Part shown: piece by piece, positions 10,931 to 14,359 of the stretch | Numbering within the stretch: position 1 is the stretch's first letter | Layout of the letters: each line of letters opens with the position of its first letter | NCBI GenBank assembly: GCA_902756345.1 | Contig: CACVQR010000010.1 | Span: 62,001 to 126,000, forward strand | Length of the DNA: 64,000 nt | DNA from: Fibrobacter succinogenes | Lineage (GTDB): Bacteria > Fibrobacterota > Fibrobacteria > Fibrobacterales > Fibrobacteraceae | Direction: 5' to 3' | Made by a program: the position numbers and the translations under genes | Notes under the pieces: model-generated | Database searches by the model: none | The model's input: only the letters and a program-made list of their open reading frames with translations | Told to the model about the DNA's origin: nothing

Positions 10931-11249
10931 CTTCCGACTTCGCCGAAAGTGTCTTCAGCAATTCCTTCTTGGTTGCACCTAACGCAAAGAACATCTTGAT
11001 CATCAGTTCAAGGGAAACGCTGGAGTCCGCATGTTCCACTTTGGCGTAACGAGACTGGCTCGTTTTCGCGATAATTGCGGCAGAGACTTGAGTTTCACCA
11101 AGAGACTTCCGCTTGGCAACCAACGCCTTAGCCAAAGCGACCTTCATTTCAACAATCGCCATTTCAGCGGGACTCAACCCCAAAAACTCGTCGACATCCC
11201 CGACTTTCCACCCCTTTTTCTGCAATCTTTCTTTTTTCAACTTATCCAT
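10923..11249 (-). CDS. HTH (XRE-type) antitoxin of a HigBA-like module
   Basis: A 108-residue protein with a helix-turn-helix of the Cro/C1 class at about 45-95 (LGETQVSAAIIAKTSQSRYAKVE region), in the position and size of HigA-type antitoxins that bind their partner and repress their own operon. It starts 3 bp after the toxin stop, with a GGAGG inside the end of the toxin gene, so the pair is translationally coupled in toxin-first order as in higBA. Its own last codons and stop (TAG) lie in the duplicated tRNA-Pro fragment at 10916-10930, so the reading frame ends inside the putative att site. Confidence 0.8.
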   Translation of the reverse strand: MDKLKKERLQKKGWKVGDVDEFLGLSPAEMAIVEMKVALAKALVAKRKSLGETQVSAAIIAKTSQSRYAKVEHADSSVSLELMIKMFFALGATKKELLKTLSAKSEAE

Positions 11250-11252
11250 AAA

Positions 11253-11588
11253 CTAATCCTCCGCATCATAAGTTTTCAATCGTTGACGACACAACTCAAG
11301 AATTTCATCAGGCGTTTTGCTCGTTTTCTTTTCCGTCCATAAAATCACAACTATTGCATCCGTATCAATCCGATAAAATAATCTCCATATTTTATTTTCA
11401 TCTCGAATGCGAAGCTCATGACAATGTGCTCCAATCGACGGCATCGGGCGACTCTGTGGAAGCGACAGATTCATTCCCGATTGCAGTAATCGTAACAGAT
11501 ATCCGGTTTCTATCCTCGCTTTTTGAGATAAAGGTGGTGTCTGCGGCTGTTCATGCAGCCAAACCAATGGTTTATGACTCGGACTCAT
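11253..11588 (-). CDS. Gp49/HigB-RelE-like toxin
   Basis: A 111-residue basic protein of the phage-derived Gp49-like branch of the RelE/HigB superfamily. The conserved core is visible: GAHCHELRIRDENKIWRLFYRI followed by a hydrophobic strand VVILWTEKKTSKTP. In this family the ELR..... WRLFY segment carries the RNase active face that cuts mRNA on the ribosome. It is the upstream gene of a two-gene module with the HTH antitoxin. No Shine-Dalgarno precedes the ATG, but an AT-rich TATATATT lies 10-18 bp upstream on the minus strand. Toxicity is inferred from family only. Confidence 0.82.
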   Translation of the reverse strand: MSPSHKPLVWLHEQPQTPPLSQKARIETGYLLRLLQSGMNLSLPQSRPMPSIGAHCHELRIRDENKIWRLFYRIDTDAIVVILWTEKKTSKTPDEILELCRQRLKTYDAED

Positions 11589-11835
11589 AAAATATATATC
11601 AGATTTGACATAACATCAAGGGTTAAGGTGAATTTTTACACCCCCTATTACTATACACGCTGTTTTGGGACGTTTGAATACCGATTTCACGAAAAATTTA
11701 TTTCTTTTTACAAAAAGAAAAAAATCGCACCGAAATCCATATAATCGGTCGCGAATTGCAGAAAGTATAAATTTGATTATTTATATTTGCCCCAAAATGA
11801 AAGTTTGGTGGGATTTTTATAACCGGAGGTCTTCT

Positions 11836-13035
11836 GTGAAGATTTTTAACGCATTGCGCAAGCGCATAACAGCATCAGCTCAGCCATGTCAGTCTGCAAG
11901 CAGCCTGCCGCGGCATTCGCTTCGCATGTTATTTGCTCTGTCCATTCTTCTAGCTCTGCTCGCAGCATGTGGCGATGAATCCTCTTCTTCCGTTTCGCCG
12001 GAACCTCGCCAGTGCGAGGAACAGAGCGATGACTGCGATGACGTAAGTTCTAGCAGTGAAAAAATTTCCAAAAATTCTTCGAGCTCGCAAAAGAGCGCCG
12101 ATAAGGGCAAGTCTTCTTCTAGCGAGAAGAGCACGAAGGAATCTAGCTCTTCGGCAGCAACCAAGAATTCTTCTAGCTCCGTCAGTGGCGATAAGAGTAG
12201 TTCTTCCGTCAAAAAAGAAGATTCCAGCAGTAGCGTGGAGATTGCTTCTTCCTCTAGTGTAACGCCGAAGTCGAGCAGTACGGTAACTTCGTCTGCGACG
12301 GTTGCGTCTAGCAGCAGCGTTACCTCTTCTGAAACTGTAGAATCGAGTAGCAGTTCGTTCGACAAGGAGTTTAATGGATCGCTTTGGCGTGCTGGCGCGT
12401 ATAAAGCATTTGTCGATACCCGCGATAATCACGAATATTATTATATACAAATTAACGGCAAGGATACGGCAGGCAAGGCTGCTACCATCAAGGTGATGGC
12501 AGAAAACTTGAATGTCGGAGAGTTTATAAGAGGCCGTAAAAACCAAGAAGATGACAATAAAATTGAACGCTATTGCTATGATAATGATACTACCAACTGT
12601 AACAAGTACGGAGGCCTATACCAGTGGGCTGAGATGATGCAGTTGCCGAACCGCTGCAATACGGAAAGCTGCGCCGATTTAATCAAGCCGAATCACCAGG
12701 GAATATGCCCCAGTGGCTGGCGCTTGTTGACCTATAATGACTACTACATTGTGGTGCATGCAGATAATAATGAAGATGGCGTAAAGGGGACCCGTGCTGG
12801 TTGCTTTGGCGGCAGCGATGATACTGGCTATAGCCTTGTTAGCACGGGGTATCTTTGGGATCATTCGTTTACGAACGTAGAAAATGGTACATATTGGCAT
12901 TATCCTGTAGAAAGCGAACAATATAATGGAATTGCTTCTAAGGTAAGTTCGCAATGGAGAACTGCAACTGGAAATTCTTATGATGATTCGTATAAGACTC
13001 AGGGCTTTTCCGTCCGTTGTGTAATGGTTGAATAA
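11836..13035 (+). CDS. FISUMP-domain lipoprotein with serine-rich linker
   Basis: I start at GTG 11836 because GGAGG (11825-11829) sits 6 nt upstream. The longer in-frame ATG starts have no ribosome site. The 399-residue product has a positively charged, atypically long leader, hydrophobic core LFALSILLALLAAC with the lipobox Cys, a linker of about 120 residues dominated by runs of serine, and a C-terminal Fibrobacter succinogenes major paralogous domain. Domain marks are KVMAENLN, a CYDND...C..YGGLYQWAEMM block, GICPSGWRLLTYNDY and a closing GFSVRCV. The domain is cysteine-containing and extracellular with unknown function. It lies in the accessory stretch after tRNA-Pro. Confidence 0.85.
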   Translation: MKIFNALRKRITASAQPCQSASSLPRHSLRMLFALSILLALLAACGDESSSSVSPEPRQCEEQSDDCDDVSSSSEKISKNSSSSQKSADKGKSSSSEKSTKESSSSAATKNSSSSVSGDKSSSSVKKEDSSSSVEIASSSSVTPKSSSTVTSSATVASSSSVTSSETVESSSSSFDKEFNGSLWRAGAYKAFVDTRDNHEYYYIQINGKDTAGKAATIKVMAENLNVGEFIRGRKNQEDDNKIERYCYDNDTTNCNKYGGLYQWAEMMQLPNRCNTESCADLIKPNHQGICPSGWRLLTYNDYYIVVHADNNEDGVKGTRAGCFGGSDDTGYSLVSTGYLWDHSFTNVENGTYWHYPVESEQYNGIASKVSSQWRTATGNSYDDSYKTQGFSVRCVMVE

Positions 13036-13102
13036 CCGTTAATTAAACAAACAATTTTAACAAATAAACAGGGCTGTACTTACCAGCCCATTGAGGGTTA
13101 TT

Positions 13103-13198
13103 ATGTCTAAGAAGAACATTAAGAATAATAAGAAAAATTCCACCCGTAAAAATTACAAAATCGAAGCGTTAGAGCCGCGCTTGATGATGGATGCCTAA
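13103..13198 (+). CDS. 31-residue ORF with LEPR-type N-terminal motif (probable remnant)
   Basis: A GAGG lies 8 nt before ATG 13103. The product is 31 residues: a strongly basic, Asn/Lys-rich start followed by YKIEALEPRLMMDA and a stop. The LEPR-xLL-type motif is known from the extreme N-termini of very large surface or adhesin-like proteins, where it directs export and is followed by thousands of residues. Here the frame stops right after the motif, and the following 580 bp hold no continuation in any frame. It is therefore either the stranded 5' end of a lost giant gene or a free-standing short peptide. It follows the FISUMP gene by 67 bp, with a GGGCTG/CAGCCC hairpin between. Confidence 0.6.
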   Translation: MSKKNIKNNKKNSTRKNYKIEALEPRLMMDA

Positions 13199-13784
13199 AG
13201 AAAGCGACGGCGAATGCCTGGCCGCTAAGCGGACAGTAAAGGCCGAAGGCCGTAATTTCTGTGAGTAATAAATGCTTGGTATTAACCAAGCATGTTTGCG
13301 AGAGTGGGGCGTAAGACGAACGGTCTTTGGGCTCGTGCGGAGCAGGCTGAGCCGGAGCGCTGCTTGCTAAGCGTTTTCTCGGATGGAAAGGTGACCCCGG
13401 AACAAGTCCGGGGTGACATCCGGGGGTGTTAGGGGGTGGAACCACCTAGGCGAGGGGGGCAGAAAGACGTTTTGGACGCGAGTAGAAAAGGAGATCCCAC
13501 CTTGGTGGCCATGCGCACTAAGCAACAAGTTGCTAAGTGCTGTCCGCCCGGGTCAAGGACAATCAGCAGGACACGCGGACAAAGCGGCTGCAAGCAGGGG
13601 GATGCCTCCCCCTCCTAAAAATAATCGCAATTTTGCAATCAATTGATTGCACGCATTAGACGTTTCTTGTTTTATCTTTGAGCAAGAATTAAGGAAATTG
13701 CGAAAAATGACAAGACCGCCCACTTTACAACATTTACACCACAGACACTTTACAAACGCAACTAATTGTTGTATATTTAGAGGT
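13199..13784. other. Gene-free accessory stretch with inverted repeats
   Basis: No credible coding sequence was found in these 586 bp. It contains a perfect 9-bp hairpin ATGCTTGGT-ATTA-ACCAAGCAT (13272-13293), a GTGACCCCGGA/TCCGGGGTGAC palindrome (13391-13416) of a type that gives the false peptide HPGLVPGS, and a near-perfect GCACTAAGCAAC/GTTGCTAAGTGC repeat (about 13516-13541). It has a GC-rich first part and an AT-rich last 160 bp that should hold the promoter of the relB-yafQ pair. It looks like decayed or inserted sequence. Confidence 0.6.
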
Positions 13785-14060
13785 ATGAGTACCGTGGTAA
13801 CAAACATTCGAATCGACAAAGAGCTCAAGGCTCAGGCAACCGAACTATTCAACGACTTGGGCTTGACGCTCTCCCAAGCGTTTACGGTTTTCCTGAAGCA
13901 AGCCATTCTGCACCACGGCCTGCCTTTTGCCGTTACAAGACCTCCGTCCAAAGAACTCCTCGAAGCCATCAAGGAAGGCGAAGAACTCGCCCACGATCCT
14001 AATGCAAAAACTTATGCTTCGTTCGATGAACTGCTTGAGGAACTGGACATAAAAAAATGA
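13785..14060 (+). CDS. RelB/DinJ-family antitoxin
   Basis: Start chosen at ATG 13785, preceded by AGAGG. The in-frame extension to 13647 has no ribosome site. The 91-residue protein begins with a ribbon-helix-helix DNA-binding segment (NIRIDKELKAQATELFNDLG, then LTLSQAFTVFLKQAI), the classic RelB/DinJ pattern, and ends in an acidic toxin-binding tail (SFDELLEELDIKK). It neutralises the YafQ-type toxin encoded next and should autoregulate the operon. The stop overlaps the toxin start in an ATGA. Confidence 0.9.
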   Translation: MSTVVTNIRIDKELKAQATELFNDLGLTLSQAFTVFLKQAILHHGLPFAVTRPPSKELLEAIKEGEELAHDPNAKTYASFDELLEELDIKK

Positions 14061-14359
14061 GTTCTAAAGACGGATTCAAGTATAATTTACGGATTACAAG
14101 CCGCTTCAAGAAGCACCTTAAACAAATTGCCAAAAGAAACATAGACAACGTCACAAAGATTAGCAATGTTGTCAATTCTCTGCAAAAAGGGGAAACTCTT
14201 GAAGCTCGATTTAAAGACCATGCTTTAGTCGGAAAATGGAACGGCCATAGGGAATGCCACATTCTTCCCGATCTTTTGCTAATCTACAAGATCGAAGAAA
14301 ACATTCTTATTCTAGAACTTGTAGACACCGGCTCTCACGCCGATTTATTCGGGAAATAA
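14057..14359 (+). CDS. YafQ-family mRNA interferase toxin
   Basis: A 100-residue basic RelE-superfamily protein. It matches the YafQ pattern: LRITSRFKKHLKQIAKR at the start, LEARFKDHALVGKWNGHRECHI in the middle and PDLLLIYKI...ELVDTGSHADLF at the end. The catalytic histidines and aspartate known for YafQ (in DHALVG, ECHI, PD and GSHADL) are all present, so the toxin looks intact. It cleaves mRNA in the ribosomal A site. It overlaps the antitoxin gene by 4 nt, and its stop directly abuts the stop of the convergent FISUMP gene (14359/14360). Confidence 0.92.
   Translation: MSSKDGFKYNLRITSRFKKHLKQIAKRNIDNVTKISNVVNSLQKGETLEARFKDHALVGKWNGHRECHILPDLLLIYKIEENILILELVDTGSHADLFGK

Follow-up and report, generated by a model that had tools for sequence, protein, structure and literature searches.

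The locus at positions 13103-13198 raises the question of why a reading frame of just 31 codons encodes the LEPR motif of giant surface proteins and then stops. The window analyzed here is a stretch of 64,000 nt from a Fibrobacter succinogenes genome, G000 (27 contigs, 99.2% complete), and the ORF sits within a 238-kb contig. The first-pass annotation took this ORF for the start of a giant gene that survived without its body, or alternatively for a short secreted or decoy peptide. The features of the locus are listed below.

11836-13035, + strand: FISUMP (Fib_succ_major) gene with a lipoprotein-like N-terminus, a Ser-rich stretch and a FISUMP domain; first half of the proposed cassette (TIGR02145, PF09603)
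11850-11931, + strand: in-frame dispersed-repeat insertion in the signal-peptide region of the FISUMP gene (alignment gap, protein comparison)
13071-13089, + strand: GC hairpin GGGCTgtacttaccAGCCC between the FISUMP gene and the leader (folding z-scores)
13093-13097, + strand: ribosome-binding site GAGGG of the leader ORF, read from the sequence; the ATG follows five bases on
13103-13198, + strand: orphan LEPR leader ORF, 31 aa and TAA (frame, NF012209 match, homologues in its own and related genomes)
13160-13195, + strand: LEPR motif IEALEPRLMMDA; directly behind it the bodies of giants start and many stubs stop
13196-13258, + strand: dispersed repeat, beginning TAAAGAAAGCGACGGCGAATG..., that supplies the stop of the leader (DNA matches in the genome, downstream comparison)

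The leader ORF and its relatives in the genus

The ORF begins with ATG at 13103, its 31 codons translate to MSKKNIKNNKKNSTRKNYKIEALEPRLMMDA, and the TAA is at 13196-13198. NCBIfam model NF012209 (LEPR-XLL domain) matches residues 19-31 with 21.1 bits against a cut-off of 17 (E 1.7e-4), covering profile positions 2-14 of 24. A Pfam search gives no family for the leader. The frame, ribosome site, motif and stop are as first described. The leader resembles LEPR-XLL proteins in the motif itself, in its place near the N-terminus behind a lysine-rich, basic stretch, and in a score above the cut-off. It differs in that the protein ends at the motif, whereas relatives with long frames are giants; the very long body of an LEPR-XLL giant is missing behind the stop after residue 31, and none was found in the genome. 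The frame does not continue past the stop, where the dispersed repeat comes next. An LEPR-XLL domain is present on a Vibrio protein of ~8000 residues (PMC10868602), and the domain also figures in PMC9611531.

A chance ORF can be rejected. The 31 residues match 11 places in their own genome (E ≤ 10, the leader itself included) and, at E ≤ 0.01, are matched in 19 of 60 genomes (G000 included), and the leader is therefore more than a chance frame. All 19 belong to the genus, which accounts for 37 of the genomes searched, so that LEPR homologues do exist in Fibrobacter, as the first-pass annotation presupposed.

The LEPR loci that were read number 74, i.e., 63 outside G000 (E ≤ 0.01) and 11 in G000 (E ≤ 10). 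Twenty-eight of these, in 10 genomes, stop 2-4 residues past LEPRxMM, with the endings DFAV (12), DA (9), AAVE (4), DAN (2) and EA (1). Nine others stop 5-40 residues and 11 stop 41-400 residues past LEPRxMM; the motif is incomplete in a further 11. In the remaining 15, from 9 genomes, the frame is open through the whole fetched stretch; 14 of these frames have 1,855-8,227 codons and one has 674. LEPR giants are present in 9/37 genus genomes; this count covers giants with a leader similar to the query (E ≤ 0.01) and misses diverged ones. The giant N-terminus closest to the leader of the window is that of G005:C1:163435, which is 94% identical and opens a frame of 4,989 codons. Since the same N-terminus is found on giants with long open frames, the identification of the leader as the start of a giant gene is upheld, and the search for this N-terminus in full-length giants of related genomes, proposed in the first-pass annotation, has a positive outcome. 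The locus is not singular, however: it is one of 28 stubs, it is tied to the FISUMP gene upstream and it is exchanged with that gene.

The FISUMP gene and its exchange with the leader

The FISUMP gene starts with GTG, has GGAGG upstream, and matches TIGR02145 at 2e-20 (74.2 bits, cut-off 41.65) and PF09603 at 1.6e-11. It is a member, above the cut-off, of a family with many representatives in Fibrobacteres (PMC4704652); in human microbiomes, proteins of diversity-generating retroelements also belong to this family (PMC4159848). Here a subgroup of the family is linked to, and exchanged with, LEPR leaders; no description of this subgroup was found in the literature searched. When eight FISUMP sequences of G000 are combined into a search profile, a FISUMP domain is found to end 27-245 bases upstream of the LEPR ORF in 69 of the 74 loci, stub or giant alike (27/28 stubs, 18/20 intermediate ORFs, 13/15 giants and 11/11 incomplete motifs). 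At the five other loci the stretch reaches just 60-185 bases upstream. FISUMP-leader units repeat at steps of 1.3-1.5 kb in six genomes (G000, G003, G005, G010, G030 and G033); other steps are 2.6-2.8 kb, and these are seen in G020 too.

Genome G030 is syntenic with the window on both sides of the locus. The left flank, 10941 to 11849, has an identity of 0.96-0.99. Identity is 0.80 at 11932-11990, 0.39-0.59 from 11990 to 13000 in the FISUMP gene, 0.64-0.70 in the spacer between FISUMP gene and leader, and 0.76 in the leader. Right behind the stop of the leader 61 of 61 bases are equal, and the unique right flank from 13596 is 93% identical. G030 has a different FISUMP gene and a diverged leader at this locus, and because both have diverged between conserved flanks, the FISUMP gene and the leader have been exchanged together. 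The same locus in G003 has a FISUMP gene that is partly similar, and its leader breaks off after codon 4-5; in G010 the locus has neither FISUMP gene nor leader. The exchanged tract seems to end at the stop of the leader, but the 61 matching bases belong to the dispersed repeat, unlinked copies of which are up to 98% identical, and from about 13365 to 13596 G000 and G030 diverge once more. It is certain only that the right end precedes 13596. A RelB and YafQ-type toxin-antitoxin pair is located to the right of the leader, at 13647-14359; the flank with this pair aligns in G030 and G003 and does not align in G010.

The FISUMP gene and the leader would move as one cassette, with the shared signal-peptide region as the left recombination arm and the shared leader as the probable right arm. 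This suggests that Fibrobacter swaps surface lipoprotein genes as cassettes that end in a coding leader, which bears on surface variation of rumen and gut fibre degraders. The insertion at 11850-11931 is absent from the same locus in G003 and G030, and the repeat has six matches in G000, its own copy included. An in-frame repeat of this type calls to mind the palindromic elements in Rickettsia genes. Inserts that by eye resemble the 11850-11931 repeat interrupt two LEPR leaders, C20:493 and C6:8719.

The DNA of the leader segment has 46 matches in G000 at E ≤ 10, many of them solely through the repeat behind the stop. This repeat (13196-13258) also truncates other G000 leaders, either after codon 3-5 or after LEPRL. 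Classes of downstream DNA do not track the similarity of the leaders. In one class, TTTGCGGTATAAATTCC stands directly behind ATGATGGAT of the LEPR motif in 13 of 13 occurrences, and the next 168 bases, where present, are 94-97% identical while the leaders differ (10 compared). The class to which the leader of the window belongs has four members, one each in G000 and G030 and two in G005, and here the stop belongs to the dispersed repeat. The possibility that the 'FAV*' ending is the leftover C-terminus of a deleted giant was rejected: the one giant end that was read (L164) is unlike it, and all 13 places adjoin ATGATGGAT of the LEPR motif.

The hairpin at 13071-13089 has a z-score of -3.6 for the local stretch and -0.73 for a wider one. 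Some other loci display a hairpin of different sequence at the equivalent place. By eye, stable hairpins accompany leaders like that of the window and are absent from the DFAV/AAVE arrays. One conserved hairpin for all leaders was rejected, with z below -1.5 in 12/31 stubs, 9/16 intermediate ORFs and 4/12 giants, in a survey that omitted 4 of the 63 complete-motif leaders (short or repeated context). An Rfam search of the locus gives no RNA family at E ≤ 1, and a promoter scan gave no lead.

Giants and a candidate exporter

RTX calcium-binding repeats are present in the G005 giant at C3:374248. Behind it lie first a protein of 719 residues, with parts that are M50-protease-like and adaptor-like, and then a SecA-like protein of 648 residues. 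The N-terminus of the protease-adaptor matches PqqD; of four homologues that were tested, two score above the cut-off. The protease-adaptor is present in 8/9 giant-bearing genomes of the genus vs 1/28 of the others. The 37 genomes divide into 8 with giants and protease-adaptor, 1 with giants only, 1 with protease-adaptor only and 27 with neither (p 2e-6); the exceptions are G019 (88% complete; giants only) and G032 (81% complete; protease-adaptor only). A close SecA-like paralogue is found in all nine protease-adaptor genomes, and as broken pieces in G026. Stubs have no such link to the protease-adaptor, which is carried by 5 of 12 stub genomes (p 0.12).

Twenty loci were found with the protease-adaptor alignment, and a SecA-like gene is present at 17. 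A leader profile run over these 20 stretches reveals no LEPR giant start; the long ORFs that precede the protease-adaptor there extend past the limits of the sequence. In Alphaproteobacteria, eight plasmid neighbourhoods were examined of 76 records with a protease-adaptor match. The LEPR motif is present on the four giants read there (Methylosinus, Mesorhizobium, Pseudosulfitobacter and Thalassospira), two of which are annotated LEPR-XLL. In M382 and Pseudohalocynthiibacter a long ORF runs off the stretch, and in Rhizobium johnstonii (start of record) and Phyllobacterium (the most distant) no such giant is listed. A Pfam-confirmed SecA-like gene is found in five of the eight neighbourhoods; the records of Thalassospira, Rhizobium johnstonii and Phyllobacterium list no such gene next to the protease-adaptor. 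The link between LEPR giants and the protease-adaptor is therefore firmer than the link to the SecA-like gene. Comparison of two alphaproteobacterial adaptors with PqqD shows that of Pseudosulfitobacter just below the cut-off and no match for that of Thalassospira. Some records annotate these SecA-like genes as 'prepilin peptidase' or 'DEAD/DEAH box helicase'.

Giants beside a PqqD-M50-adaptor protein and, mostly, a short SecA-like ATPase (L156:552-19813 in G005:C3, and L260-L265), seen in Fibrobacterota and Alphaproteobacteria, may represent an undescribed LEPR-XLL secretion system. The leader would normally send giants to this putative exporter, where the PqqD-like domain would read the leader and the M50 part would cut near LMMDA. 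In the literature searched no account of a link between LEPR giants and such an exporter was recognised. LEPR-XLL, which is named but unexplained in that literature, is here connected with a specific exporter candidate found in two phyla, and its role is therefore testable.

On the Pseudosulfitobacter, Methylosinus and Mesorhizobium plasmids, and in Thalassospira without the SecA-like gene, LEPR giants adjoin homologues of the Fibrobacter protease-adaptor. Unlike those loci, the window has the leader alone, and neither exporter nor giant was found in its genome. A search of G000 for the protease-adaptor gives 0 matches at E ≤ 1e-10, and a search for the SecA-like paralogue gives none beyond the ordinary SecA, which is 42% identical. 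With 1,500 residues of the G005:C1 giant as query, a search without a control, G000 yields leaders only; with 2,500 residues of the G005:C3 giant it yields nothing, and all three G005 giants are recovered by that query. Both searches argue against a giant body elsewhere in G000, but one could hide in a gap, since the assembly has 27 contigs and two stubs are at contig starts. Survival of a giant-gene start without its body is thereby strengthened. Secretion of a short peptide by the LEPR route is unsupported, because the exporter that accompanies LEPR giants was not found in G000.

Persistence and loss of leaders

The explanation favored here, with a probability of about 0.7, is that the mini-ORF represents the export leader at the N-terminus of a giant LEPR surface protein, a leader that lacks the body of the giant and persists as the end of a FISUMP cassette. 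Recombination through the shared leader, as proposed above, would let the leader survive as the right end of the cassette once the body of the giant is gone. The element in the window is most likely a relic: in G000 the leader would be without cargo and without exporter, and would be eroding from the right side.

G000 has 112 FISUMP-domain matches, and a census was taken of 20 flanks, hand-picked as the low-scoring kind that accompanies leaders. The leader is present up to the end of the motif in 6 of the 20. The other 14 are without a complete leader: 4 are cut just after LEPRL, 5 after codon 3-5 and 4 before the ATG, and in 1 an insert breaks the leader ahead of LEPR. The census leaves out a leader fragment at C6:8719, whose FISUMP domain was found by the eight-sequence profile and is not in the list of 112, and the flanks C5:30167 and C6:196544, which have no trace of a leader. 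Within the remaining part of the leader, no frameshift or stop is present in any of the 20 flanks; the cause of the losses is therefore rearrangement from the right side.

The stub in the window and that of G005:C2 are equal in 31 of 31 residues, and their 11 codon differences are all synonymous. The other stubs and leaders that were compared with the stub of the window differ from it by 4-16 synonymous and 0-4 non-synonymous codon differences. The ratio of non-synonymous to synonymous differences per site is 0.21 for 31 stubs, 0.28 for 15 giants and 0.17 for 17 intermediate ORFs; for the stubs it is 0.26 in the 18 from exporter-less genomes and 0.29 in the 13 from exporter-bearing genomes. 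This estimate uses the 63 of 74 leaders with a complete motif, the last 16 codons and greedy disjoint nearest pairs, and counts as stubs ORFs of ≤ 41 residues (31 loci), whereas the 28 stubs of the class count stop ≤ 4 residues after LEPRxMM. The leaders still present look constrained, but this is suggestive only, since they were found by protein similarity, which favors conserved ones. Ancestry in the leaders of giants, or recombination with them, would give the same pattern.

Constraint counts against a relic, as it could mean that the stub has a function. The stub could be a free micropeptide made from the FISUMP transcript, e.g., one that partners or regulates the FISUMP lipoprotein, with an amino acid sequence selected independently of giants and exporter. 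The ribosome site, the recurrence of the stop 2-4 codons past the motif at 28 of 74 loci in 10 genomes, the synonymous differences from the G005:C2 stub, the constraint in exporter-less genomes as well, and the intact frames in the remaining leader parts of the 20 flanks are consistent with this. Loss of a complete leader from 14 of the 20 flanks and from the same locus in G003, together with the detection bias in the constraint estimate, makes it unlikely. A broader proposal, in which the LEPR leader acts as a detachable coding joint, is doubtful to a similar degree: the leader would serve as an export signal for the PqqD-M50-adaptor/SecA-like exporter when ahead of a giant, and otherwise, at the 3' end of FISUMP cassettes, as an expressed, selected micropeptide whose DNA is the arm for swaps of surface lipoprotein variants among loci and strains.

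It is also conceivable that the leader persists as DNA only because it provides the right-hand arm of homology when FISUMP variants are swapped from locus to locus, its coding content being irrelevant. That the FISUMP gene and the leader both differ from those of G030 while the flanks are conserved agrees with such a role, as do the neighbouring FISUMP-stub units and the 168-bp spacer that keeps its high identity between genomes behind diverged leaders. The wide synonymous divergence of the leaders is not what an arm acting at the DNA level would favor, however, and loci with a cut leader still have FISUMP genes; this explanation is quite improbable. Repeats adjoin the stub and two stubs are at contig starts, as would suit an assembly artefact in which a real giant body was lost. 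Such an artefact can be dismissed as scarcely credible, given the position of the stub inside the 238-kb contig, unique DNA to the right that is syntenic with G030 and G003, and the same junction at three loci in G005 and G030.

A loss of the body followed by persistence of the leader remains the preferred explanation for the window. One of the six complete leaders in the G000 census extends to 146 residues. An LEPR ORF of this length is similar in G000 (L036:1706-2146) and G033 (L148:7294 onward), and perhaps represents a short-bodied LEPR protein.
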